Source: an uncultured Granulosicoccus sp. (GTDB taxonomy: Bacteria > Pseudomonadota > Gammaproteobacteria > Granulosicoccales > Granulosicoccaceae). Taken from it: a stretch of DNA of 38,192 bases. The notes below the pieces were generated by a model that saw only the letters and a list, made by a program, of their open reading frames with translations, made no database searches and was not told the DNA's origin. The DNA is taken from assembly GCA_938003775.1 (NCBI GenBank), contig CALKXZ010000290.1, positions 1 through 38,192 on the forward strand. The letters are read 5' to 3'. The first letter of the stretch is position 1, and every line of letters starts with the position of its first letter. Positions 5,517 through 29,133 of this stretch are shown piece by piece. A program made the translations under genes and the position numbers.

Positions 5517-7678
5517 ACACGTGTTCGCTCATCGAATGCTCGGCGTAATACGTCGATTAATCGAGTACCTAGCGGTGTGGGTGTATGAACAAACCTTACA
5601 TCGACGTGGGCGCCAATGGGTGCAGGGCCCGCATCACTTGGCCAAGCAAGTTCAATATCTATAACCGGTTCCATGACTTGTCGACCATCTCCTTGTGGAT
5701 CTGCCCGGTGCTCGCCACCACCCGCGGTGCTGAGCGCGGCACTGGGGACATCACGACTTGCGCGCGGTGTACGGGCAACAATCGAGGTACGATGTACCGT
5801 TGGACCCTGTTTCTCAGAACCGACACGAACCTCTACACGCCTCAGACCAATATCAAGCTCACCAGCTACTCGCTCTGCAATCGCAACCCTCACAGTGCGT
5901 AACGAAGAAGGGACCACGTAACCTGCAATATCGCCACGCACCAGTGCACGACCCTCCAAGGCAGCTGTGCCAGGTGCATCAAACAATCCATCAAAAGCGG
6001 CAACACGACTCCCAGCATCGATACGATGACGCATATCAGCCAGTGCTGCCTGGTTGACCACACGCTCAGATTCAAGCCGTGAGCGCTCCGACGAATCATC
6101 CAGCGCAAATCCTGCAAGACGTGCATCAAGTTCGTCCTCTAGGGCCATAAGCTCACGCACTCGCGGACTCAATTCAGGATCAACACAATCAAACAGTGCC
6201 TGACCCACTGACACCTGCTGACCCGGACTTACAGATGCCACGGTAATTTCGCATTCACTTTCAGCGCGAATAATGGCCTCATCCGGTAGCCAGACCACGC
6301 CACGTGTCACGTTGGAATGGGGTAACGGCATCCACAAAAGCAATGCCCCAATCAGCATAGGAATACCGCTGATGAGCAATACTGGTCGGCTAGCATGCAA
6401 AGACGGATCGCGTGCAACGGCTCGAATGCCCCGACACAGTGGCACGATAATACTAGTGGTTATTGCGTAGACAGCCAGTGCCACGCCAAATAAGGGCAAG
6501 CGTTCACTGAGCCACCATGCAATCCAGAGCATAAGCCCGGTACGGTAGATCGCTGAGGCGACGCCATAGCCTAATAGCCAGCGTTGCTCGGCGTTATCAC
6601 TGGAGGGTTCAGTCTGATCAGCATCGCCACTGAGCCATGCGCGCAGGCGTGTCAGCACTGCGCGACGCGACCGCATTCCCAGGTTAGGAATCTCGAGAAA
6701 ATCAGCCAGCAGATAATAACCGTCAAAACGCAATAAAGGGTTACCGTTGACGAGCAAAGTGGACACACCACCAACGAGCAAGAGCGCTAGTCCAATTTCG
6801 GCAAACAAACCTGAGCTACCCGCAAACAGCAGTGCACCAAGCGCCGCAAAGGCCAGTTCAAACCCGATACCCGCTGCCGCAACTAGCATACGGTCATACT
6901 TATTTGGAAAGGCAGCGCTGGCACTGGCATCAACATAAGGTAGTGGTACCAACACCATTAAGGCTAACCCAATCTCATGCACCTCTCCACCGCATCGTTT
7001 AATAGCCAGAGCATGACCTAGCTCATGCAGGAGCTTCAACGGTGGATACAGCAGCAACATCAACAGTGCCGTTCGCGGCGAGGGAAAGTCACCAGCTGTC
7101 AACGTGGACGCCAGATTAGCGCCTCCAATCAACAACGCAATCATCCCCGCAAGCACAAGGATCAACCAAAGTACAAGAGCGGTCCGCGAAAACAACGCAT
7201 CAGCAAGCGGCTTAAGCCGCGTTAACCAAGCGTCTGGATCATGAAGGGCAAAGCGAAGGAAAAGTGGATTTAAACGTCGGGCACGACGCTCTCTAGAGCG
7301 GCGTTCATGCCGACGCTCAAACAGTTGCTGCGGCGAAACACGCTGATCCACCTGCAGTAGTTCGGCCGATTGCAGGCTTGCCAACAACGCAATCCATTCA
7401 TCTTGTGTGGGCGCAGATTTATCACGCTCAACCAGCACGCGTTCCCAAACCTCACGCACTGATGTATGCCCATCGAGTTGATCGATCAACGCGAAAGCGT
7501 TGCTATCCAGTCGATGAAATTCACCCGTTGCGCGACGCTGCAAAACCCACGAAGCTCGACCACGATAAACATGGCGAATAATCGACACATCATCCGCAAG
7601 ACGGGGACGCACGTCGCACACGCGGTGCCAGTGTTCGCTGAACAGCCGATCTTGGTTCAACTTGACAGTCTCCACCAA
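5513..7678 (-). CDS. PqqD-like / M50 zinc metallopeptidase / HlyD-like fusion membrane protein
   Basis: A 721-residue multi-domain protein. Residues about 15-115 resemble a PqqD-type winged-helix peptide-binding domain (DSNAFALIDQLDGHTSVREVW). Residues about 165-425 are multi-membrane-spanning and carry the M50 site-2-protease motifs HELGH at 218-222 and NGNPLLRFDGYY at 311-322, the latter supplying the third metal ligand. A further membrane helix at about 433-452 is followed by a lipoyl-like segment (SVSPGQQVSVGQALFDCVDPEL), a short helical hairpin and a beta-barrel-like end, as in HlyD adaptors. All predicted metal ligands are present, so it may be active. It overlaps the upstream gene by 22 bp and the SecA-like gene by 4 bp. 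Its role is inferred: substrate recognition, processing or gating at the inner membrane during export of the LEPR-XLL protein. Confidence 0.88.
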   Translation of the reverse strand: MVETVKLNQDRLFSEHWHRVCDVRPRLADDVSIIRHVYRGRASWVLQRRATGEFHRLDSNAFALIDQLDGHTSVREVWERVLVERDKSAPTQDEWIALLASLQSAELLQVDQRVSPQQLFERRHERRSRERRARRLNPLFLRFALHDPDAWLTRLKPLADALFSRTALVLWLILVLAGMIALLIGGANLASTLTAGDFPSPRTALLMLLLYPPLKLLHELGHALAIKRCGGEVHEIGLALMVLVPLPYVDASASAAFPNKYDRMLVAAAGIGFELAFAALGALLFAGSSGLFAEIGLALLLVGGVSTLLVNGNPLLRFDGYYLLADFLEIPNLGMRSRRAVLTRLRAWLSGDADQTEPSSDNAEQRWLLGYGVASAIYRTGLMLWIAWWLSERLPLFGVALAVYAITTSIIVPLCRGIRAVARDPSLHASRPVLLISGIPMLIGALLLWMPLPHSNVTRGVVWLPDEAIIRAESECEITVASVSPGQQVSVGQALFDCVDPELSPRVRELMALEDELDARLAGFALDDSSERSRLESERVVNQAALADMRHRIDAGSRVAAFDGLFDAPGTAALEGRALVRGDIAGYVVPSSLRTVRVAIAERVAGELDIGLRRVEVRVGSEKQGPTVHRTSIVARTPRASRDVPSAALSTAGGGEHRADPQGDGRQVMEPVIDIELAWPSDAGPAPIGAHVDVRFVHTPTPLGTRLIDVLRRAFDERTRV

Positions 7679-9168
7679 AGCTCACTGAGGTGCTGCAGGA
7701 GCGTTTGCCCCCACCGACGTGCCAGACTTACACGATCTGTGTTGAGACTCGCGATACCACTCTCGCCAGGGCGTGGTGTTATGCCAGGTGGAACATCAAG
7801 CGCTGCGCGGACGCGAAAACGGCTGGCACCATCAGCACTCTCGGCAACGGGGTGAATGGCACGAACAATAAACGGCATCGCCTCACTTGGACGCGAACGC
7901 AGAGACAACGAACCTACCTGCCCTTCCTGCACTTCTCGAATGTGACGCTCATGCACCATCAGGTGGACTTCAAATCCATCCGCCCGCGCGATTTCGAACA
8001 GCGCCTCACCACGGGTCACTGGTGTGCCAATAGCGTCTGCAGGATCTCCACTGACTATCAGACCATCTATTGGCGCTCGCAGCTCAATTCTGTCTAACCT
8101 TTGACTGACCAATGCACGCAAAGCCCGCTCACGATCTAACTTGGCCCTGGCAATTGCCGTCGCCTGACGATCATAGCTGGCCATCGCGGCCCGGAATTCG
8201 GATTCAGCACTGGCGATCTCACCATCGCGTCTGGTCAATTCCAGTTCTAACTCCACGGAATCCAGACGTGCCAATAGTTGCCCAGCTGACACAGCCTCAC
8301 CAGGCTTTACCACCACTTGTTCAACAAAGCCATCAAAGGGTGCGGCGATCAGCCGACGCTCACTTGGAACCAACTCGGCATCGGCAGGAACACTGTGTGG
8401 CAATGGCACCATGGCAACAAAAACCAACGCTGCCAATGACAAAACCAGCAGCAGTCGCGCGCCGTGACGCTGTGCCCCGAAACGCTGGCTAAAGAACGCG
8501 TGCATGGCGTGTCGCAAACGTGCGAATGTACCGAGTTCAGCCTCACAACGAACAGCGATCAACGGCGCTGTTACCAGTGCAACGTGTTCTAGCAAATCAA
8601 GCGTATCTGCCACAAATGGCTCGGCGTCAAGACGCTCCAGTAGCAATACACCCACAGGCTCCGCATGACGAAATAACGGCACGCTGACCAAATTGTTTCT
8701 GTCATGTCGTGAGTACAGCGCTCTATGGGCGGTCAGTACCTCGAGTCCAGCATCCGATGATGGAAAACAAACCAGTTGCTCATAGTCGATACATTCCTCC
8801 ATCACTTCCGTCAACAATCTGGCCTCGTCCGAGGCAACATCAACAGTTGCTTGCTGTGAGATTGCGTTTAACGCGATTACCCCATCCTCTTGGACCAATC
8901 CAATGGCGACTCTGGTGGCAGCAAACTGCTGCTGAAGTGCACCTGCAAAGGCGTCTACCGCTCGCTCCAGATCCGTAGGTGCAAGTAATTCTGCCAACAA
9001 TGCAAGTACGCTCGCTTGCTGATCAGCGAGCGATTCTGCTTTTTCGGCTCGATCCAGTACTAGCGCGTCCTTTGCCGCACCGTTAGGCACGCGCTCACCA
9101 TTACCCGGCAGTGACTCAGAGTCCACGCCGGGTTGTGTCGCTTCTTGATAACGATGAGTTGCGCGCAT
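7657..9168 (-). CDS. GAF-domain HlyD-family membrane fusion protein
   Basis: A 503-residue protein. The cytoplasmic N-terminal half holds a GAF-like domain at about 65-205 (VAIGLVQEDG, VSVPLFRHAEPVGVLLLERL). A single membrane helix at about 237-255 follows. The periplasmic part has the HlyD layout: lipoyl half (IAAPFDGFVEQVVVKPGEAVSAGQ split around the coil) about 273-303, helical hairpin about 305-350, second lipoyl half about 358-390 and a barrel to about 475. A GAF domain fused to an adaptor suggests that a cytoplasmic ligand is sensed by the export complex; the ligand is unknown. This is the first gene of the operon. Its ATG has no clear Shine-Dalgarno sequence, so a slightly different start is possible. 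Confidence 0.87.
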   Translation of the reverse strand: MRATHRYQEATQPGVDSESLPGNGERVPNGAAKDALVLDRAEKAESLADQQASVLALLAELLAPTDLERAVDAFAGALQQQFAATRVAIGLVQEDGVIALNAISQQATVDVASDEARLLTEVMEECIDYEQLVCFPSSDAGLEVLTAHRALYSRHDRNNLVSVPLFRHAEPVGVLLLERLDAEPFVADTLDLLEHVALVTAPLIAVRCEAELGTFARLRHAMHAFFSQRFGAQRHGARLLLVLSLAALVFVAMVPLPHSVPADAELVPSERRLIAAPFDGFVEQVVVKPGEAVSAGQLLARLDSVELELELTRRDGEIASAESEFRAAMASYDRQATAIARAKLDRERALRALVSQRLDRIELRAPIDGLIVSGDPADAIGTPVTRGEALFEIARADGFEVHLMVHERHIREVQEGQVGSLSLRSRPSEAMPFIVRAIHPVAESADGASRFRVRAALDVPPGITPRPGESGIASLNTDRVSLARRWGQTLLQHLSELWWRLSS

Positions 9169-10256: not shown

Positions 10257-11327
10257 GTGGGTGATTCTGACTGGCTCTTACCAGCTGCAGGATTAATATG
10301 CGGGATTGTGTTGGGTGGTGCCGCGCGCTGGACGCACTTCTGCACCCTGTCCTCACTAGAACGATATTGGTACGCGGACGATAGTCGCGGTTTACGTACC
10401 TGGGTGTTGGCCAGCGCAGTTGCGCTTACCGGTACCCAGGCTATGATTGCGCTGGGTTGGCTTGACATCAGTGAAACGTTCTATCTGGACAATCGCTTAA
10501 GTTGGCTCGGTGCGATTCTTGGCGGACTATTATTCGGGTTGGGCATGGCGCTGGTCGGCACCTGTTCGTTTGGCGCATTAGTACGTTTGGGTAGTGGAAG
10601 TCTTCGCTCGCTAATAGTAGTAATAGCAATTGGACTTGCTGCCCTGACCACGCAACGTGGATTGACAGGACGATGGCGCATGTCGCAAATTGAACCTCTG
10701 GCACTGGACTTGTCAGCTTTCAGCAGTCAATCCATAGGAGATCTAATTAGCGAGTTGATCGGCTTGTCGGTATCTCCATTGGTCGCGTTAATGTTTGCCA
10801 TTGCCTTGTTCTACTGGGTTTTCCGAGAACCGTCGTATCGCTGTGAAACACGCAGTATTGTAACCGGCACCATTGTAGGCCTATGCGTCTGCTTTGGCTG
10901 GTTTGCCACGAGCTATCTGGGCACACAGGTGTACAGCGTGGTGCCAGTGGAGTCTGCATCGTTTGTGCGTCCACCGGGCGATTTACTGCTCACCTTCATT
11001 GCAGCAACTCCCATTATTCCAGACTACGGTGTCGGGCTACTCCTTGGTGTTGTCGCTGGCTCCGCGCTTGTAGCGCGAGCCAGCCGCGATATGCACTGGG
11101 AGGCTTGTGATGATGCCAGAGAGTTAGGGCGTCATCTGCTTGGCGCATTTTTTATGGGAACAGGCGGTGTATTGGCAGCCGGGTGCACGGTCGGTCAGGG
11201 AATCAGTGGACTATCCACCATGGCACTATCTGCACCCATCGTGGTTATCAGCATTTACGTAGGTGCACGAACTGGTCTAGCCTGGTTAATTGAGGGACGA
11301 CCTTTTGCCATGCTACATAGCGGCTAA
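10257..11327 (+). CDS. YeeE/YedE-family thiosulfate-type transporter (TsuA/SoxT-like)
   Basis: A 356-residue inner-membrane protein with many hydrophobic helices, the length of full two-repeat YeeE/TsuA proteins. The three cysteines thought to relay thiosulfate in TsuA are present in their usual contexts: RWTHFCTLSS (Cys29), GTCSFGAL (Cys103) and AAGCTVGQG (Cys310). The start is a GTG at 10257. An in-frame stop lies just upstream and no earlier Met is available, so GTG is the best choice despite no clear ribosome site. It lies 66 bp after the repressor, probably in the same transcript, and may import thiosulfate or another sulfane-sulfur compound. Confidence 0.85.
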   Translation: MGDSDWLLPAAGLICGIVLGGAARWTHFCTLSSLERYWYADDSRGLRTWVLASAVALTGTQAMIALGWLDISETFYLDNRLSWLGAILGGLLFGLGMALVGTCSFGALVRLGSGSLRSLIVVIAIGLAALTTQRGLTGRWRMSQIEPLALDLSAFSSQSIGDLISELIGLSVSPLVALMFAIALFYWVFREPSYRCETRSIVTGTIVGLCVCFGWFATSYLGTQVYSVVPVESASFVRPPGDLLLTFIAATPIIPDYGVGLLLGVVAGSALVARASRDMHWEACDDARELGRHLLGAFFMGTGGVLAAGCTVGQGISGLSTMALSAPIVVISIYVGARTGLAWLIEGRPFAMLHSG

Positions 11328-11555: not shown

Positions 11556-12869
11556 TTATCTCAGTTCGCTGACCACTGGCCGGGTCATCGCCAGTAACGC
11601 CGGGAATAACGCTAAAAGTGACACACTGCTGAGAAACAACGCAGCGCTATGCCATTCAGGCCATCCGATAGACGCCTGCACCAGTATATTAGTCTGCTGG
11701 GAAATATAGGTCGAGACCTGGCCAGTCAGTGCAATCGCCATCACGAGCCCGACAACAGTGCCTAGTAATACAAGACCGGCACAGTAACACCACAGCACAC
11801 ACAACACGAAGCGGCTCGGTGCACCCACCGCTCTGAGCATAGCAAGTTGACGAGCGAACAATCGTGTCACCAGGATCAGGGCTGCCAGCACACTCAATGC
11901 GACCAAAATTTGAGTCACAGAGGCCATTATTGACATGACTTGACGTACATCACCGAGCACCTTATGCAAGCGTGTGAGCACTGCACCTGGAAAAAAAGCC
12001 ATAGTATCGTTGCGGCTAAATTCACTTCGTAAGCCGTAATTACCCGCTAATGAGGTAGCGCGCACCACAATTGAACTGACCCCAGGATGGTTCTTTGCAT
12101 CAAACGGTGGACCCAGCTGGTTGGTGGAACCCGGTTCATGACCATTACCCAGACCGTGCAATTGCCAAACCGCTTCGATGGGAATGAGCACCGCTTTGTC
12201 CCAAGGGCTCCCCGTCGGCTGAAGCCTGCCAGTAACAGTGAACTGTTGATGGGCATGAACCAGAACACCGTCATGCTCAGCGTTAAAGTGTTCGCCTACT
12301 CTCAACGCAGATCGGGCACCAATCACGGCATCGAACGTAGATTCAAAATGTTGACCCTCCGCCAATTCCGCAGACAGGTGTTGTACCAGGGCGCTGATAG
12401 TCCCGACCATCGGTTCACCAGCGACAACATCGCCTAAGACCACGGGCGCCGCGAAATCCACAGCCTTATGATGGGTAAGCTCGTCCAGTACCGTAGACGG
12501 CAAAAGAGGTGCGGAACCGGGCTGCAAGTACACGGTGTTCAGCAGGCGATCTACTTCACTGCCGGGGGTGGTCACAATTAGGTCAAATTTTGATGCTGAT
12601 TCGGCGCTGCCGACACGTAGGGCACGCTCCTGAGCTAACAACCCGACGCCTAAACCCACCGACACACCGATAACAAGAACGAACACAACATTGGTCCAGA
12701 AATAACGGCGCAATAGAGAGCTGACAAGTGGTGCTGGCCCATAACCAAACACCAGTACGGTAGCAAGAACCAAAACCGGCAACACGATTACCACGAGCAA
12801 GGATACATCCTGAGCAAATGCCGACAGTAAATCCCAGCGACTCAAGAAAAACTCCATAATACTAATCAT
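11556..12869 (-). CDS. FtsX/MacB-type ABC transporter permease
   Basis: A 437-residue protein with hydrophobic helices at about 22-42 and 58-78, a large extracytoplasmic domain at about 80-320 (MacB-PCD-like, FDLIVTTPGSEVDRLL and following), and three C-terminal helices at about 325-345, 365-390 and 405-425. The FtsX signature region RQLAMLRAVGAPSRFVL lies between two of these. The C-terminal topology fits mechanotransmission or lipoprotein-release exporters, with an extra helix near the start. It overlaps the ATPase stop by 8 bp and so forms a transporter with it. The substrate is unknown; the neighbouring secreted protein may be its partner. An alternative start is the ATG at 12857. Confidence 0.85.
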   Translation of the reverse strand: MISIMEFFLSRWDLLSAFAQDVSLLVVIVLPVLVLATVLVFGYGPAPLVSSLLRRYFWTNVVFVLVIGVSVGLGVGLLAQERALRVGSAESASKFDLIVTTPGSEVDRLLNTVYLQPGSAPLLPSTVLDELTHHKAVDFAAPVVLGDVVAGEPMVGTISALVQHLSAELAEGQHFESTFDAVIGARSALRVGEHFNAEHDGVLVHAHQQFTVTGRLQPTGSPWDKAVLIPIEAVWQLHGLGNGHEPGSTNQLGPPFDAKNHPGVSSIVVRATSLAGNYGLRSEFSRNDTMAFFPGAVLTRLHKVLGDVRQVMSIMASVTQILVALSVLAALILVTRLFARQLAMLRAVGAPSRFVLCVLWCYCAGLVLLGTVVGLVMAIALTGQVSTYISQQTNILVQASIGWPEWHSAALFLSSVSLLALFPALLAMTRPVVSELR

Positions 12870-13608
12870 CTAGCGCAGCGCTGGATGTGTCATCACAATG
12901 GATTATGTCTCGCCCATACTCATCAGCCTCTGGGAACTGATCCGCACCGATCTCTCGCCCATCGACAAGACGGACAATGCGATCCATATGTGCAAGCAAT
13001 TGCTCGTCGTGGCTAACCACAAACAAGCTTTTGCCTGTGTCACGCACTACTGTCAATAGATCGTTGACTAGCTCATCCGCTGTTGCCCGATCAAGACTTG
13101 CTGTGGGTTCATCGGCCAGAATGATGTCAGGATCACTTGCCAATGCACGCGCCACAGCGACACGTTGCCGCTCTCCACCGGAATAGCTACGCACGGGCCG
13201 ATGATAATCGCGAATACCGAGATCCATGAGCAGTGTTTGTGCTCGTTGATCGATAGCCAAACGATTTGAGCGAGGTGTAAAGCCTTTGGACAATTGCACA
13301 TTTTGCAATGCGCTGAGTTCTTCGAAAAGGAGAATATCTTGAAACACCTGACCAACATGCTGCCGACGAAATTCGCCTCGTTGGCTGGAGCCAGCCTCGA
13401 GTAGGTTGTAATCATTCCACCGGATTTGTCCGGTAGCGTGTTCTGCCAGGCCGGCCAATGCGAATAACAATGTGGATTTACCTGCGCCAGATGGACCGGC
13501 TATGCCAACACATGATCCACCCTGTACGGTTAATTGATCGATAGACAGAAGTGTTCGACTGTCGGTGCCAAAAACCTGCAATTGGTCCACTACTAGGGTT
13601 AGCGACAC
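12862..13608 (-). CDS. ABC transporter ATPase (LolD/MacB type)
   Basis: A 248-residue nucleotide-binding subunit with Walker A GPSGAGKST (38-46), Q-loop VFQD (88-91), signature SGGERQ (143-148), Walker B IILADEP (162-168) and switch His200 (VVSHDE). Its size and motif spacing fit the LolD/MacB class that pairs with FtsX-like permeases. Translation starts at GTG 13608, 3 bp after the stop of the upstream small secreted protein, and overlaps the permease gene by 8 bp. It energises the permease at 11556-12869. Confidence 0.9.
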   Translation of the reverse strand: MSLTLVVDQLQVFGTDSRTLLSIDQLTVQGGSCVGIAGPSGAGKSTLLFALAGLAEHATGQIRWNDYNLLEAGSSQRGEFRRQHVGQVFQDILLFEELSALQNVQLSKGFTPRSNRLAIDQRAQTLLMDLGIRDYHRPVRSYSGGERQRVAVARALASDPDIILADEPTASLDRATADELVNDLLTVVRDTGKSLFVVSHDEQLLAHMDRIVRLVDGREIGADQFPEADEYGRDIIHCDDTSSAALDD

Positions 13609-13611
13609 AGC

Positions 13612-14082
13612 TTATGCGCCACGCCGATACGTCGCCTCAGTTAACCTCACTTTGCTGTAGAACCCATTTTCAGCATCTTTGACACCACCTAGCTGTAACA
13701 CACCGTTGACGGTCATCTTCGCATTGTAAGGCAACACCTTAACGATACGCTTGGTGTACACCGCTAGAATATCGTCTGGCCAGTCTGCATCGGACTCACA
13801 AAACGGGCATACAGCCATGGGTCGCTTGGTTAGGACAAAGAATCTGGACTCAGCTTTTAACGGTGGTGCCATGTAACCTGTAACTGATAGGCGTTTTCCT
13901 TCGGAACTCAGGGCACGATCCGAAAAACTGAGGTCTTTATTATACAGATCGCGTAACAGGACGATATCGTTACTAGCAGACTCCCTGGCCAGCGTACGCA
14001 AACTAACAGTGCCGGATATCACCGCAAGCATCAGCCCACGGCGATCCAAGTCTAATACTGCCTTACTCGACCGTTGCCGCAT
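13612..14082 (-). CDS. Small secreted protein of unknown function linked to the ABC transporter
   Basis: A 156-residue protein with an RR-containing hydrophobic N-terminus (DRRGLMLAVISGTVSL) that could be a Tat- or Sec-type signal or an anchor. The mature part has a VTGYMAPP segment and a CPFCES pair of cysteines (about 92-95), followed by KMTVNGVLQLG. This looks like an OB-fold-like domain and is loosely reminiscent of DUF3299, but I do not claim membership. It overlaps the alkaline phosphatase stop by 20 bp and precedes the ATPase by 3 bp, so the four genes are probably one operon. The CxxC pair could bind a metal or be redox-active; this is inference. Confidence 0.72.
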   Translation of the reverse strand: MRQRSSKAVLDLDRRGLMLAVISGTVSLRTLARESASNDIVLLRDLYNKDLSFSDRALSSEGKRLSVTGYMAPPLKAESRFFVLTKRPMAVCPFCESDADWPDDILAVYTKRIVKVLPYNAKMTVNGVLQLGGVKDAENGFYSKVRLTEATYRRGA

Positions 14083-16092: not shown

Positions 16093-17418
16093 CTACTCAA
16101 ATTCCATAGCGCGGAAAATACGATCAGCGTTTAGTCCGGCGAGTTCATCAAATGTGTCAAGATGTGCAAAGGCTGACTGATCAATTTTGTACGCATCAAT
16201 CAACGAACCACCTGTATCTAATAATTCAGCAATTTCTGAACGCATGAATTTCAGATAATCGACGGTCCAAATTTTGACCTCGGCAACCGTGGTGGGGTGC
16301 CCGTGCCCCGGCACGACAACTGTCGGTGACAGCGCTTCAAAGTGATGCCAAGATTCCAGCCAACCGACTGTATCAGTGTCTTCAAAAACAGGCAGTAGCC
16401 GCTCATGAAAAGCCATATCACCAGCAATGACTGTTTGCCTGTCTGGAATATGGACAACAATATCTCCGGGGCTATGGGCTGGACCGAGATATAACACTTC
16501 GATTTTAGTATCGCCCAGCTCAATGTCGTAACGCTCGTCAAACGTGATATCGGGCATCGATAACACAGTTCCCATTGCCTTATCCCGATTTCGCAATTGC
16601 ATGCGTTGGAGAACAGTTTCACCTCTTTCAGCAATGACATCGGCAGCATCAACATGGGCTATTACCTCAGCGCCCTGCTCCTGCCAGTAGTTCATGCCTA
16701 ACATGGCATGGCCCTGACCATTTTCAAGCACCACAAATTTGACGGCTTGATCGGTTATCGCTTTGATCTCCTGATGCAGTGCAGCAGCGAGCAAGTAATT
16801 GTCACCTGCATTTACAACAACAACACCTTCGCTAGTGACAATGAACGACAAATTATTATTGTGTCCAGAATTCTCGAAAGTTGGCGGCGCCGTTGCACCA
16901 ATCGCTGACCACACACCATCAACCACAGCAGACGGTTTGTCAAACAACATGGACCCTACTGCCAGATCACTACGTTTGACGGGTAAGTTGGCTTGTTGCC
17001 ACGCTCCAAATCCATCCTGATAATTATAAACGTGTGTGTAACCTATTCTCTGCAACGTATCAGCTGCCAATGGACTCCGACGATTAGTCCCGCAATAGAC
17101 CACAATAGGTGTGGACAAATCAGGAATGGCATCACGCACCTGAAATTCCAGCCATCCCCTCACTATGTTGTGGGTACGTTTACCAGCGCTGATAATTCCA
17201 CCACTACGCGCCGCCTCGTCCGGTGTTCTTACATCCAAAAACTCAAGTGATGGCGTCTTTTCGATGAGGGCGCTGAGCTTAGCGGTATCTACATGTTGAA
17301 TGCGCCCCTCTAGCTGCTGCAACCAGTCTTCGCCACTGAGCAATGGCTCTGCTGCAAGACGTGTGGCGCTGAACACGCCTAAGATTGTAATAACTAGAAC
17401 GTGATCTAAACGATACAT
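16093..17418 (-). CDS. Rhodanese / metallo-beta-lactamase-fold fusion with a degenerate first metal motif
   Basis: A 441-residue periplasmic protein (signal peptide about 1-23). Residues about 45-145 form a rhodanese domain with active-site loop CGTNRRS (Cys109), suited to carrying a persulfide. Residues about 160-435 form an MBL-fold domain in the SoxH-like class: LENGQGHAMLG at 231-241, GPAHSPGD with His315, AGDMAF with Asp334 and VPGHGHP at 370-375. The canonical HxHxDH motif is replaced by NGQGHA, so at least two usual zinc ligands are gone, while later ligands persist. A strong AGGAG precedes the ATG. It is last in the sox cluster after the second MBL gene. Sulfur transfer or persulfide handling is the inferred role. 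Confidence 0.85.
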   Translation of the reverse strand: MYRLDHVLVITILGVFSATRLAAEPLLSGEDWLQQLEGRIQHVDTAKLSALIEKTPSLEFLDVRTPDEAARSGGIISAGKRTHNIVRGWLEFQVRDAIPDLSTPIVVYCGTNRRSPLAADTLQRIGYTHVYNYQDGFGAWQQANLPVKRSDLAVGSMLFDKPSAVVDGVWSAIGATAPPTFENSGHNNNLSFIVTSEGVVVVNAGDNYLLAAALHQEIKAITDQAVKFVVLENGQGHAMLGMNYWQEQGAEVIAHVDAADVIAERGETVLQRMQLRNRDKAMGTVLSMPDITFDERYDIELGDTKIEVLYLGPAHSPGDIVVHIPDRQTVIAGDMAFHERLLPVFEDTDTVGWLESWHHFEALSPTVVVPGHGHPTTVAEVKIWTVDYLKFMRSEIAELLDTGGSLIDAYKIDQSAFAHLDTFDELAGLNADRIFRAMEFE

Positions 17419-17538: not shown

Positions 17539-18507
17539 TCATTCAACAATAAATCGGTAGCCTTGGCGTGTTTTATCCACTTGACCCAGTCCCGGATAAG
17601 GGAGATGAAATGCGAGCAGCTTTAGATTCTCGTTATAAGATCGTTCTAGCAACATCTGGCGCGTAGCTGCACCAGCTACAGGGTCTAAATCTGCACTAAT
17701 CAACCACTTCGGCTGCTCAAACGACAACGCAATATGTGTCAGCGCATCCCCCGCCACTAACACCGTGTTATCACCGTTATGAATTGCAAATGATGTATGA
17801 CCTGGGGTGTGACCGTGCGTATCAATCGCCTCAACCCCTGCCACAACTTCGTCTCCCCAGTTGTAAAACTGAAGTTGCTCCTGCAGTCGTGGTAGCCGAT
17901 TCTGTGCACCTATGACAAATGTTTTCCGATTCTCCGCCGTGCCAGAAAGCGTTTTGTCGTCCATCCAGTAGTCATACTCAAATTGATGTATATGGTGGGT
18001 TGCATTGGCGCACAGTAGCTCATCAAAATTATCCAGTACTCCCCACAGGTGATCCGGATGCGCATGTGTAAAAATGACATCTGTTACATCGAGCGGATCA
18101 ATGCCCACTGTTTCGAGTTGTGTAGGCAACAGACCCGTGGTGTTCATAAAATTGGCACCCGAACCAATATCAAACAGAATTAACTTATCTTTATTGCGCA
18201 ATACCGTGATATTGCAATCGGGTTGATTGATGTGCGGATCAAGCTGATAGCGGTCGAATAGACCCTGCCACTGAGACATTTCAATGCGAGTATCGTACGG
18301 CTTGCGTGGCGGTAGATCCAAGTGCCCATCCGATAACACACTTAACTCACCGCCGCTAGCCATGTGTATGGTGGGGCTAGCAGCAGCGCGAACCAATGAA
18401 GGTAGTGTCGTACTCAGAGTCGTGGTGGCCGCTAGGTACCCCAGCAATCGACGACGACTCCAATCTGGACGTACATCACGGGTGTACATGTCATCCAGCC
18501 ATGTCAT
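17539..18507 (-). CDS. Tat-exported MBL-fold metallohydrolase of the sox cluster
   Basis: A 322-residue protein with a twin-arginine signal (WSRRRLLGYLAA, Arg18-20, followed by a hydrophobic run to about 42). The metallo-beta-lactamase domain has a complete first motif THAHPDH (148-153), a second ligand in HGHTPGHTSF and Asp in VAGDALTH. It is therefore likely a folded, metal-loaded periplasmic hydrolase. Its ATG overlaps the fccB stop by 4 bp, so it is co-translated with flavocytochrome c. The substrate is not known. The context suggests a role in sulfur-oxidation intermediates, in contrast to the degenerate MBL in the next gene. Confidence 0.87.
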   Translation of the reverse strand: MTWLDDMYTRDVRPDWSRRRLLGYLAATTTLSTTLPSLVRAAASPTIHMASGGELSVLSDGHLDLPPRKPYDTRIEMSQWQGLFDRYQLDPHINQPDCNITVLRNKDKLILFDIGSGANFMNTTGLLPTQLETVGIDPLDVTDVIFTHAHPDHLWGVLDNFDELLCANATHHIHQFEYDYWMDDKTLSGTAENRKTFVIGAQNRLPRLQEQLQFYNWGDEVVAGVEAIDTHGHTPGHTSFAIHNGDNTVLVAGDALTHIALSFEQPKWLISADLDPVAGAATRQMLLERSYNENLKLLAFHLPYPGLGQVDKTRQGYRFIVE

Positions 18508-19781
18508 CCAAACATGTCAGCTGTGATTGAAGCGTACCAGCCTACAGATTCTTCATAAGTGGTTTTACGCAGTGCCGCATCTTCACCGGTTTGACTAATA
18601 AATGTAGACGTGGAGACGATCTGACCGGCGTCATCTGCTTCATACTGCGCCCCAACTTTCACGCCATTGTCAGCAGCAATGAGACTCCAGCAGGTGTTCG
18701 AGTACTTGGCCGCAAACACACGCGAGTCCAGTAAATCTCCCAAAACATTCATGGCGGCTACCTTTGCTTGGCTATTGGCAGAGAAGCCTGATTTGGGCAT
18801 GGCTCCGGCAATACTAGCATCACCAATGACGTATATTTTCTCGTCCGCAGATGAACGCATTGAGTGTCCATCAACCGGACAGAATCCGCTGTCATCACTC
18901 AACCCTGCACTAACAGCAATAGCGCCAGCCTGTTGTGCCGGTATGATATTGAGAACCGCGGCTTCAAACGTATCCAGGTCAGTTTCTACGGTACCCGAAT
19001 TGGCGTCCACCGACAGGATGCCACCGTGTATTTCAGGTGAAATCCACTCGATAATATCGCCATAGTGGGTTTCCCACCCCTCAGTAAACAAGCCTTGTTT
19101 AGAGAATTTCGGTTTGACATCCAGTATAGTGACCTTACTATCGGTGAACCCCTTAGACTGAATAAGATGCGCCATCATGGATGCCCGCTCGTATGGTCCT
19201 GGTGGGCAGCGGTAAGGGTTTGGTGGCGCTACCATCACAATGTTTTCACCATTTTCTAGAGCATCAAGCTTTTCTTTTAGAATTTGTGTTTGTGATCCGC
19301 CTTGCCAGGCATGAGGTGCAATTTGCGATGCCGCTTCACTGTAACCGGGTACCGATTCATATTGTATATCTATACCTGGGGCAACAACCAGTGCATCGTA
19401 GGCAAGCTTAGTTCCGTCTTCGAGCATAACCATTTGTTGGCTGCGATCTATTTCCTTTGCATAACCATTGACAATAGTAATGTCATGGTCCGCTGCCAAT
19501 TTATCGTATGAATGCGTTATAGAGTCAAAATTTCTAAAATCACCCAGAAATAGATTCGAATAGAAACACGTTGTGTACTGTGTAGAGCTTTCCACCAGTG
19601 TTACATCTATTGCGCCTTTAGCGCCTTGAGACAGGTAACGGGCAGCAGTGGCTCCGCCGGCACCACCACCAATGACCACAACCTTTGGTTTAGCTTGCCC
19701 GAGCAACGTAATAGGCGTTGCTAACGCTGCCGTACCCAATCCCAATAGTGCCGTAAATTCTCGTCTCGTCAGATTCTTCAT
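18504..19781 (-). CDS. fccB: Flavocytochrome c sulfide dehydrogenase, flavoprotein subunit (FccB/SoxF)
   Basis: A 425-residue FAD protein with a Tat signal (LTRREFTALLGLGTAALATP). The dinucleotide-binding motif VVVIGGGAGGATAARYL lies at 34-50. Cys72 in QYTTCFYSNLFLG matches the cysteine that covalently binds FAD in FccB. Cys192 (YRCPPGPYERA) and Cys363 (NTCWSLIA) match the redox-active disulfide pair that receives sulfide. A second FAD motif IYVIGDAS is at 315-322. It would oxidise sulfide to zero-valent sulfur and pass electrons to the cytochrome encoded just upstream. AGGAG lies at good spacing before the ATG. Confidence 0.92.
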   Translation of the reverse strand: MKNLTRREFTALLGLGTAALATPITLLGQAKPKVVVIGGGAGGATAARYLSQGAKGAIDVTLVESSTQYTTCFYSNLFLGDFRNFDSITHSYDKLAADHDITIVNGYAKEIDRSQQMVMLEDGTKLAYDALVVAPGIDIQYESVPGYSEAASQIAPHAWQGGSQTQILKEKLDALENGENIVMVAPPNPYRCPPGPYERASMMAHLIQSKGFTDSKVTILDVKPKFSKQGLFTEGWETHYGDIIEWISPEIHGGILSVDANSGTVETDLDTFEAAVLNIIPAQQAGAIAVSAGLSDDSGFCPVDGHSMRSSADEKIYVIGDASIAGAMPKSGFSANSQAKVAAMNVLGDLLDSRVFAAKYSNTCWSLIAADNGVKVGAQYEADDAGQIVSTSTFISQTGEDAALRKTTYEESVGWYASITADMFG

Positions 19782-19888: not shown

Positions 19889-20284
19889 TTAACACGCTGA
19901 GCTTGAAGTGCTCTCACCACACACATATTCAGTTTTAGATAGATAGAACACCAGTGCTGCTATCTCAGCGGCATTTAGCGCTTCAGCCACACTTTGCATT
20001 GTTGGATTTTTGCGCGCACCCATTTGAAATGCTAACAACATGGCGGTCAGGGTCTCAGGGGGCTTTCCATATATCATTGGAATCGAATCAGAGGCGTCGG
20101 CTGTTCGACTGTGACAAGCTATACACTCACCCGCCAGATATTCGCCATACGCATCGTCCGCTCCCAACGCCAATATCTGTTCAACTTTTTGAGTCATGTT
20201 TTCTGCCGACGCTGGTGTTGCAACCAACAACATGATAACCAGCAGCGAACTGCCAATCGACGGATTAATCCACAGTCGGTGCAT
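19889..20284 (-). CDS. fccA: Mono-heme cytochrome c subunit of sulfide dehydrogenase (FccA/SoxE)
   Basis: A 131-residue periplasmic cytochrome. I chose ATG 20284 and not the longer frame from 20314, because AGAGG (20291-20295) sits 6 bases upstream and a clean signal peptide follows (cleavage near ASA|EN at 27). One heme site, CIACH at 54-58, with a likely Met96 axial ligand in NPTMQSVAEAL. The fold is cytochrome c553-like. Two additional C-terminal cysteines (122 and 131) are unusual. It overlaps the soxD stop by 20 bp and precedes fccB. It should accept electrons from FccB. Confidence 0.85.
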   Translation of the reverse strand: MHRLWINPSIGSSLLVIMLLVATPASAENMTQKVEQILALGADDAYGEYLAGECIACHSRTADASDSIPMIYGKPPETLTAMLLAFQMGARKNPTMQSVAEALNAAEIAALVFYLSKTEYVCGESTSSSAC

Positions 20285-21392
20285 CGCTTGCCTCTTCTGC
20301 ATCAGGTGTGACATTTAATATCTGCGCTCTATTGATTACTTTGACTATTCCCGGTAAGCAGTTCTGCATACAAGGTTCCCCAACAATCTGATGAGTTGGT
20401 TCTTCGTCACGAGTATCACTCATAAAATTATTTTCATTAGGCAAGCGAATATCTGTGAAATTCTGATCAGATAGCTCGAATTCCTCATCCACTAGGTCAT
20501 TGAGGTAAAGCAGATACGCGGTTAGTGCATAAACATCATCATCACTGAGAGACCGCGCGTTACCAAAAGGCATGGCCCGTCGGATGTAATCGTATACAGT
20601 GGACAAATACGGCCAATAGGAACCAATAGTCTTCTCAGGTCGATCATCTACTAACGAATCCTGACCACCAGCCAGTATCGGCCAACGACCTTCTCCCTCG
20701 CCAAAGACTCCATGACAGCTGGCACATTGTTCATCATAGAGTTCTCCACCGGTGATCACATCACCACTGCCACTGGGTAATCCAACACCGTCTGGTCGTA
20801 TGTCAATATCCCAGGCAATGACTTCAGCATCCAGCGCTGGGCGGCCTAGATGTAACAGACCATGTTCCGGAATGGGTATATCTCGCGCAAGAGATCGTTG
20901 TTGCCCATCGCTGGTTTGTGATGTTTTTTCCGGCTTGGTCGCCGCAGGTTCGGGCAGTTGACCGCTACTGTCAATAGACGCTAGGTAAGCAATAACAGAT
21001 GCCCTGTCATCCGCATTGCTTAGACCTTGATAGGCCATTTTGGTACCTGGCATATAACTCATCGGTGCTTGTAAAAATGCATCTAATTTTGCGGTGTCCC
21101 ATACCGATTCGGTATCAATCGAGTTTTCAAACGCCTCTGAATAAGCATAGTTTTCAGCGCTACCTGCGGCGCGTTGCATGACGCCATTGAGATGTGGCCC
21201 AAACTGATTCTTTGCGTTGGGCCCTATGGCATGGCACGATGTACATTGCTTAAAAACAGTCGCTCCTGCGCCTAAGTCTTGTGCATATGTTGGATGTGTG
21301 TGAAAAAATACGATTACACTGAGCACAACTGGTAGTGATCGATCAATAAATTGTCGCTTCAAGCTGGCATTAGCCACAGCCACAATACGCAT
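20265..21392 (-). CDS. soxD: SoxD, diheme cytochrome c subunit of sulfane dehydrogenase
   Basis: A 375-residue periplasmic protein with a signal peptide (about 18-37). It has a class-I cytochrome domain at about 40-140 with CTSCH (50-54) and Met119 (MPGTKMAY), a Pro/Ser/Lys linker of about 30 residues, and a SoxD-type domain from DIPIPEHGLLHLGRPAL (171-187) with CASCHG at 223-228, GRWPIL and RAMPFGNA. It transfers electrons from the SoxC molybdenum centre to the respiratory chain. Its ATG shares one base with the soxC TGA (TGATG), so the two are tightly coupled. Cysteines near the C-terminus (GEPCMQNC) are an extra feature. Confidence 0.92.
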   Translation of the reverse strand: MRIVAVANASLKRQFIDRSLPVVLSVIVFFHTHPTYAQDLGAGATVFKQCTSCHAIGPNAKNQFGPHLNGVMQRAAGSAENYAYSEAFENSIDTESVWDTAKLDAFLQAPMSYMPGTKMAYQGLSNADDRASVIAYLASIDSSGQLPEPAATKPEKTSQTSDGQQRSLARDIPIPEHGLLHLGRPALDAEVIAWDIDIRPDGVGLPSGSGDVITGGELYDEQCASCHGVFGEGEGRWPILAGGQDSLVDDRPEKTIGSYWPYLSTVYDYIRRAMPFGNARSLSDDDVYALTAYLLYLNDLVDEEFELSDQNFTDIRLPNENNFMSDTRDEEPTHQIVGEPCMQNCLPGIVKVINRAQILNVTPDAEEASDAPTVD

Positions 21393-22714
21393 CAGGATAC
21401 CTCCACATTCTCAGCAGAACCGTCGGCGCGAACATGCCATGTCTGAATCCCATTGTTATGGTAGATCGAATTTTCACCTCGTGCAGCCCGCAGTGCATCT
21501 TTAGTGGGTTGCAAGTTTCGTGATTCATCAATAGCACGACTTTGCAGAAACAGTTCCTGACCCTGCCAATTGAATTCATAATAAAAACGGTGCACAGACT
21601 TATTCAAACTTTCACCATCTAGACGAGCAGTGTGCCAATGACGCCCTCCATCAATGGACACGTCTACACGTTTTATACGGCCGTGACCTGACCAGGCCAA
21701 ACCCGATAGAACAGTCTGACCCTGTCCGTGTGTTATCGGCGCTTGTGGACTGGGGTTGGTGATAACCGATTTAACATCCATGGTCCAGGTAAAACGACGG
21801 GCCTGACCATCTGCCAGAAGGTCAGTGTATTTGGAAGTCTCTTCACGTTGGTGCCAGGGCTGATCCCCTACCTCTATACGACGCAGCCACTTCACCCACA
21901 TATTGCCTTCCCAACCAGGAACGACCAGTCGTAACGGATAACCCTGTTCAGGTCTTAGCGCTTCGCCATTCATCTTAAACGCTATCAGACAATCATCCAT
22001 GGCTTTTTCCATCGGAATAGAACGCGTCATATGCGCCGCATCGCCACCTTCTGGAAGGATCCATTTCCCTTTGGGAGATACCCCGGCTTCCGCCAATACA
22101 TCTCGCAGACGAACACCGGTGTACATGACGTTATGTACCATACCGTGCGTGAACTGACATCCGTTAAGCTGAGCACCACGCCACTCCATGCCGGTGTTAG
22201 CCGCACATTCAAGAAAGTACACATGATTTTCACGAGGAAACCTGCTGATATCTTCCATAGTAAATATCAATGGTGTCTTAACCAGTCCATTGATCATTAA
22301 TCGATGGTCGGCTGGTGAAATGTCTGCAACGCCGCCATGATGCCGCTCAAAGCACAAACCGTTAGGTGTAATAATGCCATCCAGCTTGTGCAGCGGCGTA
22401 AAGTTCACAGAGGACTTTGCATCAGCTGTTAACCAGGCGACATCTCTACGCACGGCATCGGCTTCGTGCACAGACGGTTGCCCATAGGGTTTAGCATCTA
22501 CCCCAGGTCCAAGGTACCGGTTCCAATCTTGTACCTCGGTTATCAATTTTTCAGGTGCTGTTGAAGCTGCCAAACTCGAAGTTGCTGCACCCAGACCAGT
22601 GGCAAGACCACCTAGCGCCACACTGGATTTTAATAACTGACGACGTTGGCCAGCATTCTTGTCAAGAAACTCAGCACCTGCAGTTGAACCACTGGCCTTG
22701 TTTTTAGCACGCAT
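21392..22714 (-). CDS. soxC: SoxC, molybdenum sulfane dehydrogenase
   Basis: A 440-residue protein of the sulfite-oxidase family. I preferred ATG 22714 to the upstream GTG at 22747, because AAAGG lies 8 bases before it and an RR-containing Tat-like signal follows (GQRRQLLKSSVALGGLATGLG). The molybdopterin ligand Cys170 is in FLECAANTGMEW. Conserved stretches include GVRLRDVL, PLRLVVPGWEGNMWVKWL and the C-terminal dimerisation domain (VDVSIDGGRHW). With SoxD it removes six electrons from the SoxY-bound sulfane sulfur, so thiosulfate can be oxidised completely to sulfate without sulfur globules. Confidence 0.94.
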   Translation of the reverse strand: MRAKNKASGSTAGAEFLDKNAGQRRQLLKSSVALGGLATGLGAATSSLAASTAPEKLITEVQDWNRYLGPGVDAKPYGQPSVHEADAVRRDVAWLTADAKSSVNFTPLHKLDGIITPNGLCFERHHGGVADISPADHRLMINGLVKTPLIFTMEDISRFPRENHVYFLECAANTGMEWRGAQLNGCQFTHGMVHNVMYTGVRLRDVLAEAGVSPKGKWILPEGGDAAHMTRSIPMEKAMDDCLIAFKMNGEALRPEQGYPLRLVVPGWEGNMWVKWLRRIEVGDQPWHQREETSKYTDLLADGQARRFTWTMDVKSVITNPSPQAPITHGQGQTVLSGLAWSGHGRIKRVDVSIDGGRHWHTARLDGESLNKSVHRFYYEFNWQGQELFLQSRAIDESRNLQPTKDALRAARGENSIYHNNGIQTWHVRADGSAENVEVS

Positions 22715-22810
22715 AACGACGCCTTTTAAATGGGTGAAATTGCTCACAGTTTATATTCACTAAATACTATGTATTATTTCGCACTGACTCTGAAACTAGG
22801 GTATTCACAA

Positions 22811-24505
22811 TTAATCTATAACGTTAACTGCTTGATTAGGCAAAACAGATATCGTGGACTGACTGTCGAAGTACTCTTCCATTACATCGTAAATTGCCGG
22901 ACCTTCGACGGCTTCATTTACCGATGCCCAACCAGCTACAACATAGCTTTTATCGGGGTCAACCGCTTCACCGGTGTCTAGATTTATCATGTTAGTGATA
23001 CGAGACCCAATGGCAGACGATGGTGACACGGTATACCCCATCCCGCCTACTCGCACCATGTCGCCACCTTGTTGAAAAAAAGGATCTGGATTAAACAGGT
23101 TATCGCAGACATCTTCGAGTATCTCGTGTATCTGCGCACCAGTAAATTCCAGTCTGTACACAGCGGGGTACGTCATTGCTGTCTGTGTATAAAGATCTTC
23201 AATGGTTATGTCATCACCTGGTAACAGGGTCGTGCCCCAGCGAAATCCCGGACTGAATGCAAACTCAGCATCTCGCACAGCCATCATGCCTTCGCACAGT
23301 AAATCGTCCCATGTGCCGTTAAAATTTCCGCGCCGGTACAACAATGAATCTGTCTTACCGATCACGCGCCCCAGTTCTTCCTCATACGGAGCTCGTACCC
23401 TATCGATTTCGGCACTCATCTGGTTATCCGGAGTTATGACATCAGCAAACACCGGGATCAACTTTGACGTATGGCCAACTACTTTGCCTTGACGCACCTC
23501 CAGGTCAACACGCCCTAAGTATTTTCCGTGAGAGCCACTGGACAGTATAATTGTGGACCCCACGGTAACAGCCTCTGGTATCGCATCGTGCGTGTGCCCG
23601 GTCAGTATGACATCGATACCAGGCACGGTAGCAGCCAGTTTTCTGTCGACATCGAACCCATTGTGAGACAGTAGAACAACCACATCGGCACCCTGTGCAC
23701 GCGCTGCTTTAATATTGGCAGCCAGCAATTGCGTGCGTAAACCAAATGACCAATTAGGAAACATCCAGCGCGGGTTGGCAATAGGTGTATAGGGCATTGC
23801 CTGTCCTATTACAGCCACCCTTGATTCGCCCACATCATGAAAGAGCGTACTATCAAATACGGGTTCTTCCCAGTCATTATCAACAATATTGCTAGCAAGA
23901 AACGGATAATCCAGGGCTTCAACAAGCTCTAGCAAACGCTCTTCACCCAGTGTGAATTCCCAATGACCGACCATTGCAGCAGGCGCTAGCAATCGCATGC
24001 AATCAACCATATCCTGAGCACCTGTTTTTAGTGCGGTGTAAGATCCTTGCCACGTGTCTCCACCATCGAGTAACAACACATTATTGTCACCACGCTCCGC
24101 ACGAATGGCTTTCACCAGCGTTGCAGTTCGATCCAACCCACCTAGGCGGCCATAGGTACGGGCCATGTTGACATAATCCACCATGGTATGTGCGTAGGCT
24201 AAGGCACTACCCCGTTCTAGTCCGAAGTGTTTTAGAAAATCATCCCCTACTAAATGTGGAGGGATACCCGCATAATCACCAACGCCTATGTTTTCTGACG
24301 GCGGCCTAAAATACAGCGGTTTTAATTGCGCATGGATGTCAGTGATATGCAGCAGCGTCAGTTTACCGGTAGACTTAAATGACAGTAAGTCATCTTGAGA
24401 CAACGACTGCTGTGCCGCTACCTTGGTCAAACTGCCGCTAAATGCTGTGGCAGCCGCCGTAACGGTTGCCATTTGCAGGAAATCGCGTCGAGAAAACATG
24501 CTCAT
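22811..24505 (-). CDS. soxB: SoxB, sulfate thiol esterase (thiosulfohydrolase)
   Basis: A 564-residue protein of the 5'-nucleotidase/metallophosphoesterase family. ATG 24505 (or 24499) gives a Tat signal (MFSRRDFLQMATVTAAATAFSG) directly at the N-terminus. The longer frame would start at TTG 24541. Dimanganese-site motifs are HITDIHAQ at 53-60, GGDTWQGS at 148-155, GHWEFTLG at 180-187 (GHWEF is characteristic of SoxB) and LTGHTHD further on. It hydrolyses the terminal sulfone from SoxY-bound S-sulfonate to release sulfate. The ribosome site is weak, so coupling with soxA 43-80 bp upstream is possible. Confidence 0.94.
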   Translation of the reverse strand: MSMFSRRDFLQMATVTAAATAFSGSLTKVAAQQSLSQDDLLSFKSTGKLTLLHITDIHAQLKPLYFRPPSENIGVGDYAGIPPHLVGDDFLKHFGLERGSALAYAHTMVDYVNMARTYGRLGGLDRTATLVKAIRAERGDNNVLLLDGGDTWQGSYTALKTGAQDMVDCMRLLAPAAMVGHWEFTLGEERLLELVEALDYPFLASNIVDNDWEEPVFDSTLFHDVGESRVAVIGQAMPYTPIANPRWMFPNWSFGLRTQLLAANIKAARAQGADVVVLLSHNGFDVDRKLAATVPGIDVILTGHTHDAIPEAVTVGSTIILSSGSHGKYLGRVDLEVRQGKVVGHTSKLIPVFADVITPDNQMSAEIDRVRAPYEEELGRVIGKTDSLLYRRGNFNGTWDDLLCEGMMAVRDAEFAFSPGFRWGTTLLPGDDITIEDLYTQTAMTYPAVYRLEFTGAQIHEILEDVCDNLFNPDPFFQQGGDMVRVGGMGYTVSPSSAIGSRITNMINLDTGEAVDPDKSYVVAGWASVNEAVEGPAIYDVMEEYFDSQSTISVLPNQAVNVID

Positions 24506-24584
24506 TACTGCGTTCAGGTCCAGGTAGCGAAATAGTGACAAAACACGGGTATTGGTATTGATGCAGCAGCTTTAGTTGTACCTG

Positions 24585-25445
24585 TTATTGACGAACAGCT
24601 GGTGTTTCTACAGACAGACCTTCACTGCGCCACGTGGTGTAGACCTCTAGCGCCATCAAGTCATCTGAAAATGCAGCCGGGAATTCGGCACGTGTGTCAC
24701 GGATGCAACCCCGAAAACGATTATGCAACGAGATGAGCTTACCTTGCTTAAGCCGATAAGTAGGAAACCCATTAACGTTGCCTTGACTGAGATGATCAGC
24801 CCGTATGTATTTGCCATTGTTCTTCTCATGACATGATGCACAGGATAGATTCAACTGACCCGTTCGCGAGTAATAAAGCTCTTGACCTTTATCCCACCAC
24901 TGCTGCATATCACCTTCTGCCAGATTGACTTTGACAGGCTCACCAAGTGACTGATGCTTGATATACGCTGTTAGTGGCTTTTGACCACCCTTATCAAATG
25001 GATAAGCTTCTGCGCCCATGTTATCGACACGACATCGATTAATGCGCAGCTCAACATTGATAGGCTTGCCGGTTATCTCATCCCATTTGGGATATCTTGC
25101 GCCCACGTTAACCATGGACTGTGCCGCATCGTCATGGCATGAAGCACATGATTTACCAACGCTGCCCTCTACGGTATTCCACAGTTGTTCACCCTGCTCC
25201 ACTTCTAACATACCTGGGTTTTGAAAACTGTCGGCTTCGAGTGCGCGAGTGGACTCTGTACGAAAGTGCCAACCTGAGATGACTTCCGGCAAAGGATGGC
25301 CGTCAGCGGATTGCGTGCGGGTCGTCATTTCTATTTCATCGTCTATCACGAGGCGCTCATCAACAGGACCCGACCAAGCGCCACTACTCACGAGTACTAA
25401 GACAGCACCACAAATCCCTACAACACAACCGTTGTTGCCTCTCAT
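24585..25445 (-). CDS. soxA: SoxA, diheme cytochrome c of the SoxXA complex
   Basis: A 286-residue periplasmic protein with a signal peptide (about 1-25). Two heme sites, CASCH at 100-104 and 202-206, are both kept; many SoxA have lost the first. Cys247 in RFRGCIRDTRAEFP is the conserved catalytic heme-ligand cysteine that becomes persulfidated. Cys138 (NRCRV) is also conserved. With SoxX it couples thiosulfate oxidatively to the SoxY carrier cysteine. AGGAG (25452-25456) lies upstream. Confidence 0.94.
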   Translation of the reverse strand: MRGNNGCVVGICGAVLVLVSSGAWSGPVDERLVIDDEIEMTTRTQSADGHPLPEVISGWHFRTESTRALEADSFQNPGMLEVEQGEQLWNTVEGSVGKSCASCHDDAAQSMVNVGARYPKWDEITGKPINVELRINRCRVDNMGAEAYPFDKGGQKPLTAYIKHQSLGEPVKVNLAEGDMQQWWDKGQELYYSRTGQLNLSCASCHEKNNGKYIRADHLSQGNVNGFPTYRLKQGKLISLHNRFRGCIRDTRAEFPAAFSDDLMALEVYTTWRSEGLSVETPAVRQ

Positions 25446-25583: not shown

Positions 25584-25907
25584 CTAAGCGACAGCGATAT
25601 CCTTAGTTGCTTCGATCACCTCACCGTCATCATCGGTCCAGCTAAATTTGAACGTACCGGCCTCACTAACCAGTGCCTTGAATTCAAAATACGGATTGGC
25701 TGAGATTGCAGGGTCCAGATCACAGGAGAACACAGGTTTTCCGTTAAACTCGCAACTGAATGCATTAATAATTTTACGCGGGATTACGTTACCTTCCTTG
25801 TCCTTACGCTGCCCTGATTCCATCTTGTGGCTGATTAAGGACTTGATGGTAATGATGTCGCCAACTGCTGCTTTTTTTGGAACCTTAATTCTTGGTTTAC
25901 TTGCCAT
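25584..25907 (-). CDS. soxZ: SoxZ, carrier complex subunit
   Basis: A 107-residue protein with the SoxZ immunoglobulin-like fold: PRIKVPKKAAVGDIITIKSLISHKMESG at the start, FSCEFNGKPVFSCDLDPAISANPYFEF in the middle and KFSWTDDDGEVIEA near the end. It forms the SoxYZ heterodimer that carries sulfur intermediates. It has no signal peptide and is expected to be exported bound to SoxY by Tat. A good ribosome site (CGGAGAG) precedes it, 12 bp after soxY. Confidence 0.95.
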   Translation of the reverse strand: MASKPRIKVPKKAAVGDIITIKSLISHKMESGQRKDKEGNVIPRKIINAFSCEFNGKPVFSCDLDPAISANPYFEFKALVSEAGTFKFSWTDDDGEVIEATKDIAVA

Positions 25908-29084: not shown

Positions 29085-29133
29085 AGGCAGTGTTACTGAC
29101 GAAGTCACCAATTTTGATGAATTGACTCTATAT

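Follow-up and report, generated by a model that had tools for sequence, protein, structure and literature searches.

The last gene of a sox cluster (16093–17418, minus strand) in the window, i.e. the whole 38,192-nucleotide stretch of DNA from an uncultured Granulosicoccus sp. that was analysed, encodes a 441-residue fusion of a rhodanese and an MBL domain that is almost certainly SoxH, a long-known protein whose job is unknown and whose identity had been overlooked in the initial annotation. True SoxH, that of Paracoccus included, lacks the zinc motif HxHxDH and has another set of residues instead, which is strictly conserved. According to the explanation favored here, the SoxH family would have given up metal site 1 (His116 replaced by Asn, His118 by Gln) and rebuilt site 2 around His237 (the old Asp120), Asp334, and His372, with His315 near; a single metal would be held in a His/His/Asp(/His) setting instead of the usual zinc pair. 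SoxH, putatively periplasmic, would act on the sulfur at the cysteine arm of SoxYZ by release or transfer of a persulfide or S-sulfonate end, and Cys109 of the fused rhodanese would take up or hand over the sulfane sulfur. For this explanation as a whole we estimate a probability of roughly 0.4. The old unknown is turned into a short list of questions: which metal is bound, which SoxYZ-bound species is the target, and what the rhodanese contributes.

Protein architecture and sox gene cluster

The reading frame starts with ATG and is intact. Residues 46–142 (16993–17283, minus strand) form a rhodanese domain (Pfam PF00581; 46.1 bits, cut-off 22.2) with putative sulfurtransferase activity, whose active-site loop CGTNRRS with Cys109 is indeed intact, as initially claimed. 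The SoxH-type MBL domain (residues 160–441; 16096–16941, minus strand) was recognized by Pfam PF00753 (Lactamase_B; 39.4 bits, cut-off 22.7), by structural matches, and by a tblastn match to SoxH. The N-terminus of the protein is hydrophobic by eye and contains a helix at residues 4–20 in the AlphaFold model (mean pLDDT 95.7, pTM 0.88); over residues 151–441 the predicted model matches MBL structures, among them 8d2z (Z 34.0), 6uxu (Z 31.9), and the B2 enzymes CphA and Sfh-I (Z approximately 27). By position and alignments, E232-N-G-Q-G-H-A238 (16705–16725, minus strand) replaces the canonical T-HxHxDH; the reported loss of the first MBL motif is thus borne out, residues 233–238 reading NGQGHA in place of the HxHxDH of di-zinc MBL proteins. 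The equivalents of His196, Asp/Cys221, and His263 are present as His315 (in AHSPGD), Asp334 (in AGDMAF), and His372 (in PGHGHP, which also holds residue 374).

On the minus strand, the cluster comprises a cytochrome c gene at the place of soxX (26386–26928), soxY (25920–26372; C-terminus GGCGG), soxZ (25584–25907), soxA (24585–25445; profile match), soxB (22811–24541; 810 bits to TIGR04486, cut-off 550), soxC (21392–22747; 616 bits to TIGR04555, cut-off 420), and genes for a SoxD-like diheme cytochrome c (20265–21392; profile matches), a small c-type cytochrome-like protein in the soxE position (19889–20314; CIACH, by eye), a SoxF-like flavocytochrome c sulfide dehydrogenase (FCSD) flavoprotein (18504–19781; profile matches), and a SoxG-like MBL protein of 322 residues with intact HAHPDH (17539–18507; AidB-lactonase-like profile, N-terminal twin-Arg by eye, comparison with Paracoccus SoxG), followed by the rhodanese-SoxH gene as the last one. 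The initial description of a gene that ends a sox cluster with a complete MBL protein was therefore correct. In four Granulosicoccaceae loci (L031–L034), sox genes run up to the same final gene. A YeeE/YedE-type, SoxT-like sulfur transporter (Pfam PF04143) is encoded at 10257–11327 on the plus strand of the window, and a YeeE gene also adjoins soxH of Paracoccus and Ruegeria.

Other minus-strand genes of the window are recorded here as separate observations: a possible export unit after an alkaline phosphatase gene (11556–14082), made up of a 156-residue protein that matches no Pfam family, an ABC ATPase, and a weakly matching FtsX-like permease; a protein in which a GAF domain is combined with membrane-fusion parts of the HlyD type (7657–9168); and a phosphotransferase-like (APH) part combined with an AAA kinase-like part in one protein (27390–29111).

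Identity as SoxH

The MBL half (residues 156–441) shares 54.4% and 54.7% identity with the product of the last sox-cluster gene of P. pantotrophus and P. ferrooxidans, respectively (tblastn against plasmid records). The annotated gene order of P. ferrooxidans is soxX, Y, Z, A, B, C, cytochrome, cytochrome, flavoprotein, MBL, MBL; the last of these we take to be SoxH by position, the letters D to H being transferred from the published Paracoccus cluster since only soxX to soxC carry names in the record. Both Paracoccus proteins are approximately 313 residues long and read INENGQGHAMLGN at the first motif. The common position after SoxG, the 54% identity across the full MBL domain, and the common motif ENGQGHAMLG identify the window gene as soxH with a rhodanese in front; the Paracoccus protein differs by the absence of a rhodanese domain (Pfam, P. 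ferrooxidans), a separate rhodanese gene adjoining on the other strand. In a quick tree of 62 rows picked for diversity, in which two long branches meet and from which the motif columns were omitted, 24 SoxH rows including Paracoccus form a clade with a support of 97; the first motif of the SoxH clade is NxQxHA throughout.

Conservation of the altered first motif

The change of the first motif is, to near certainty, a conserved feature and no decay. Among 228 distinct homologues (235 extracted proteins minus 7 duplicates), 118 contained NxQxHA, 54 HxHxDH, and 38 GxQxHR. A search of 57 genomes of relatives revealed copies of at least 55% identity in the window and nine other genomes, with N233, Q235, G236, H237, and A238 the same in all ten aligned proteins. 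The best 80 of 549 loci from a scan of species genomes, including Chromatiaceae, Thiothrix, Thiobacillus, Thioalkalivibrio, and the Solemya velum symbiont, held the N, Q, H, and A positions in all 79 readable cases, a count that is not independent because the motif itself was one of the two scan patterns. Outside this pattern scan, 150 distinct homologues were distributed over HxHxDH (53), NxQxHA (41), GxQxHR (38), and rarer states (18); this set consists of the loci of the relatives, class, and phylum searches, six plasmid loci, and 60 places picked from the matches listed (E values of about 1e-60 to 1e-29); the window's own gene is part of it, and it does not comprise every match. Position 203 in the preceding strand, usually Asp, is Asn in 117 of the 118 NxQxHA proteins (one gap) and Asp in 38/38 GxQxHR and 53/54 HxHxDH proteins (one gap); the rewritten positions therefore move as one package in SoxH.

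We found no description of the NxQxHA motif of SoxH in the accessible passages on SoxH, on rhodanese-MBL fusions, and on altered HxHxDH motifs. The GxQxHR proteins are another MBL family with an altered motif, and their neighbors at one locus are linked to thiols: on a Pseudosulfitobacter plasmid (L114:5326-9137), the gene stands in a row with those for ArsR, a permease, thioredoxin, and OsmC, and genes annotated as arsenate reductase (azurin) lie close by.

A putative reorganised metal site

The register of the first motif is ungapped between a canonical relative (INTHMHPDHIFGN, L115), Paracoccus SoxH, and CphA (phmmer alignment), so that Asn233, Gln235, His237, and Ala238 stand for His116, His118, Asp120, and His/Arg121, respectively, if the class-B numbering is applied as we assume. 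His237 hence occupies the place of Asp120 in other MBL proteins and may serve as a metal ligand. Residues 237/315/334/372 read His-His-Asp-His in 164 of 169 proteins (125 of the N class, 44 of the G class), the five exceptions being HYPH (two), HHDD, AHDH, and LYDH; the quartet is Asp-His-Asp-His in all 54 canonical relatives. In these proteins only the first motif was rewritten, with a His fixed at the usual Asp120 position. Over the 169 proteins, 19 of 282 columns reach 97%, among them Q235, H237, H315, D334, R340, H372, and Y388. Of the residues initially listed as retained, His315, Asp334, and His372 stand, but His374 is no conserved residue: across the 118 NxQxHA proteins this position varies (Gly, Glu, His, Asp, Thr, and others), and the family residue is His372.

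Since a metal-free fold would not be expected to hold His237, His315, Asp334, and His372 together down to approximately 25–30% identity, the retained quartet seems to speak for a reorganised site with one metal and less for a dead fold, and such a single site in SoxH is the somewhat more probable state of affairs. The sequence and structure matches yielded neither a solved structure nor a metal analysis for any NxQxHA or GxQxHR protein. Action on SoxYZ-bound sulfur with the rhodanese as relay is a more tentative proposal. Broader still, and rather doubtful, is the suggestion that SoxH and its GxQxHR sisters might form a distinct class of MBL-fold metalloenzymes with Asp120 changed to His and a single-metal centre, possibly not zinc, which would act on protein-bound sulfane sulfur (SoxYZ, thioredoxin/OsmC-type partners) with the rhodanese as a built-in relay; if true, SoxH would thereby gain a function, and its label as a zinc hydrolase would be corrected.

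Rhodanese and other fusions

The rhodanese is, judging from the proteins compared, an optional add-on outside the SoxH core: a profile built from close fusions detected it in 85 of the 118 NxQxHA proteins and not in 31, two being cut by contig ends (outside the pattern scan: 13 of 41). The same search found no rhodanese in the HxHxDH (0/54) and GxQxHR (0/38) proteins, four of each being cut by contig ends. One tree clade of 14 rows (support 95) carries it in 13, and the rhodanese therefore probably joined SoxH once. Of 75 aligned fusions, 70 have Cys, three Ser, and two Asp at position 109.

Three other SoxH proteins possess a different N-terminal domain; in the two that were tested, Pfam assigns it to dienelactone hydrolase (PF01738 in place of the rhodanese; L122:1343-3133 and L124:577-2379). 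In Thiothrix lacustris (L045:8915-11227), a 771-residue chain combines a canonical MBL domain (HYHADH) with a rhodanese and with SoxH of the NxQxHA type; at locus L054 a canonical MBL protein of this kind is encoded by a separate gene just upstream. A fusion of SoxH with a cytochrome, suspected from N-terminal sequences, was dismissed, as none of the 235 extracted proteins contained CxxCH.

Genomic company of SoxH

SoxH occurs almost only together with SoxB. When genomes with a SoxH match at E 1e-75 or better are considered (24 among 369 sampled), SoxB is present in 23 of the 24, compared with 151 of all 369 (Fisher p 6e-9). SoxC accompanies SoxH in only 11 of the 24 genomes; SoxH thus serves truncated as well as complete Sox systems and is not confined to those with the full cycle. 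A dependence on SoxCD was considered and rejected on this count; fused and unfused proteins show no clear split either, SoxC occurring with two of seven fused and nine of 16 unfused or DLH-fused proteins (the truncated one of genome G318 left out). To our knowledge, soxFGH of Paracoccus are not required for thiosulfate oxidation in vitro.

Sox genes were detected near SoxH in 16 of 80 pattern-scan loci (tblastn with the window proteins), a count that distant sox genes may escape and in which short contigs appear as misses. Outside sox clusters no constant partner was found, the largest neighbor clusters holding at most 10 of 79 loci. A common SoxYZ-type partner is the simplest link: quinoprotein relay metallohydrolase 2, which is the nearest relative with a name, adjoins a SoxYZ-like carrier, and with such a partner the rhodanese would fit as a sulfur relay. 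According to PMC12997753, Pseudomonas putida repeatedly groups a SoxH-like protein with a rhodanese and a SoxYZ-like carrier.

Alternative explanations

The initial annotation had suggested that the altered MBL domain might bind a different metal or none and act as a persulfide-binding scaffold; the metal may be a different one. As a pseudoenzyme, the metal-free domain would dock SoxYZ or a persulfide and leave the chemistry to the rhodanese or to SoxG; this is possible, yet less likely than a rebuilt metal site, and we regard it as unlikely overall. The replacement of all four metal-binding letters of the first motif would agree with it, as would the Thiothrix chain and the canonical MBL gene within 6 kb of SoxH in 14 of 79 loci (the fused Thiothrix one included), as an active/inactive pair might be arranged; a canonical MBL protein was, however, not found nearby in the other 65 loci, and those near SoxH are of at least three kinds by eye, so that a conserved pairing is not general. 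The purely structural role is weakened by the joint retention of His315, Asp334, and His372 with the new, near-invariant His237 in 164/169 proteins. Real loss of the site has another look: in a GxE side-lineage (L183, L184, L196; Gln235 changed to Glu), which looks like a truly dead site from its residues, His315 is lost in three of three and Asp334 in two of three proteins.

That SoxH might be a mononuclear non-haem iron enzyme with a 2-His-1-Asp centre (His237, His372, Asp334) and persulfide chemistry appears improbable. Its candidate residues are likewise two or three His and one Asp, but the first His of HxHxDH, which we take to be an iron ligand in dioxygenases of the ETHE1/CstB type, is Asn233 in SoxH; moreover, SoxH looks exported, which would be a less usual place for Fe(II). 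Persulfide dioxygenases bind iron by two His and one Asp (H57/H113/D130, PMC6060420) within an MBL fold, though at other positions of this fold, and as far as the available text of PMC6060420 and PMC12856154 goes, their fusions (CstB, PpPDO/PRF) resemble the window protein in combining this fold with a rhodanese in one chain, with persulfide chemistry as their task, but carry the rhodanese at the C-terminus, whereas it is N-terminal in the SoxH fusion.

Marginally less probable again is a zinc metallohydrolase of the ordinary kind, which would release sulfate from SoxY in the way proposed for proteins called SoxH. Such a role is given in the accessible parts of PMC10045233 (for Sulfurovum) and PMC11237559, and soxG and soxH are described as thiosulfate-induced periplasmic zinc metallohydrolases in that of PMC10221251; the exact function of SoxH is unknown according to PMC4891895, and PMC11582611 uses the name for a gene near PQQ-linked genes. 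Paracoccus SoxH, however, lacks the zinc motif that SoxG and the PQQ relay protein retain, and SoxB, thought to perform the hydrolysis, is present in nearly all SoxH genomes. The missing motif is not mentioned in the accessible portions of PMC10045233, PMC4891895, PMC10221251, and PMC11582611. As the name SoxH spans proteins with and without zinc motif, published roles may not transfer, and given a family-wide rebuilt site the zinc-hydrolase label of SoxH needs testing.

Decay of this one copy, finally, which would have made the change unique to this genome, is refuted by the motif shared by 118 of 228 homologues and present in Paracoccus SoxH, by the intact frame, and by the 29 columns that reach at least 97% in the N class.

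Comparison with known systems

The best curated profiles for the window protein are those of quinoprotein relay system zinc metallohydrolases 1 and 2 (TIGR04558 and TIGR04559, "SoxH-related"; 113 and 138 bits), which have a SoxYZ-like carrier as partner; the scores stay below the cut-offs of 300 and 280 (137.6 bits to TIGR04559, approximately 137 for both the window protein and P. ferrooxidans SoxH), whereas a true member (L115) attains 414 bits and keeps HMHPDH. Among the matches listed, no NCBIfam model was passed by either protein. The closest solved fold, the Burkholderia cenocepacia MBL protein 8d2z (rmsd 2.2, 272 residues), has an altered first motif as well (HxHxVR in the alignment), but keeps the first two His and replaces Asp/His by Val/Arg. 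MBL proteins with HxHxVR like that of 8d2z are also encoded at loci L022, L025, L027, and L028, another altered-motif family in the genus of the window. Subclass B2 (CphA, Sfh-I) resembles the window protein in Asn116 (CphA alignment), in its single-zinc form (PDB titles), and in fold; it differs in that CphA and Sfh-I keep His118 and Asp120, where the window protein has Gln and His. As far as the aligned residues tell, CphA with its Asn116 and single zinc is the nearest known arrangement to the putative site of SoxH.
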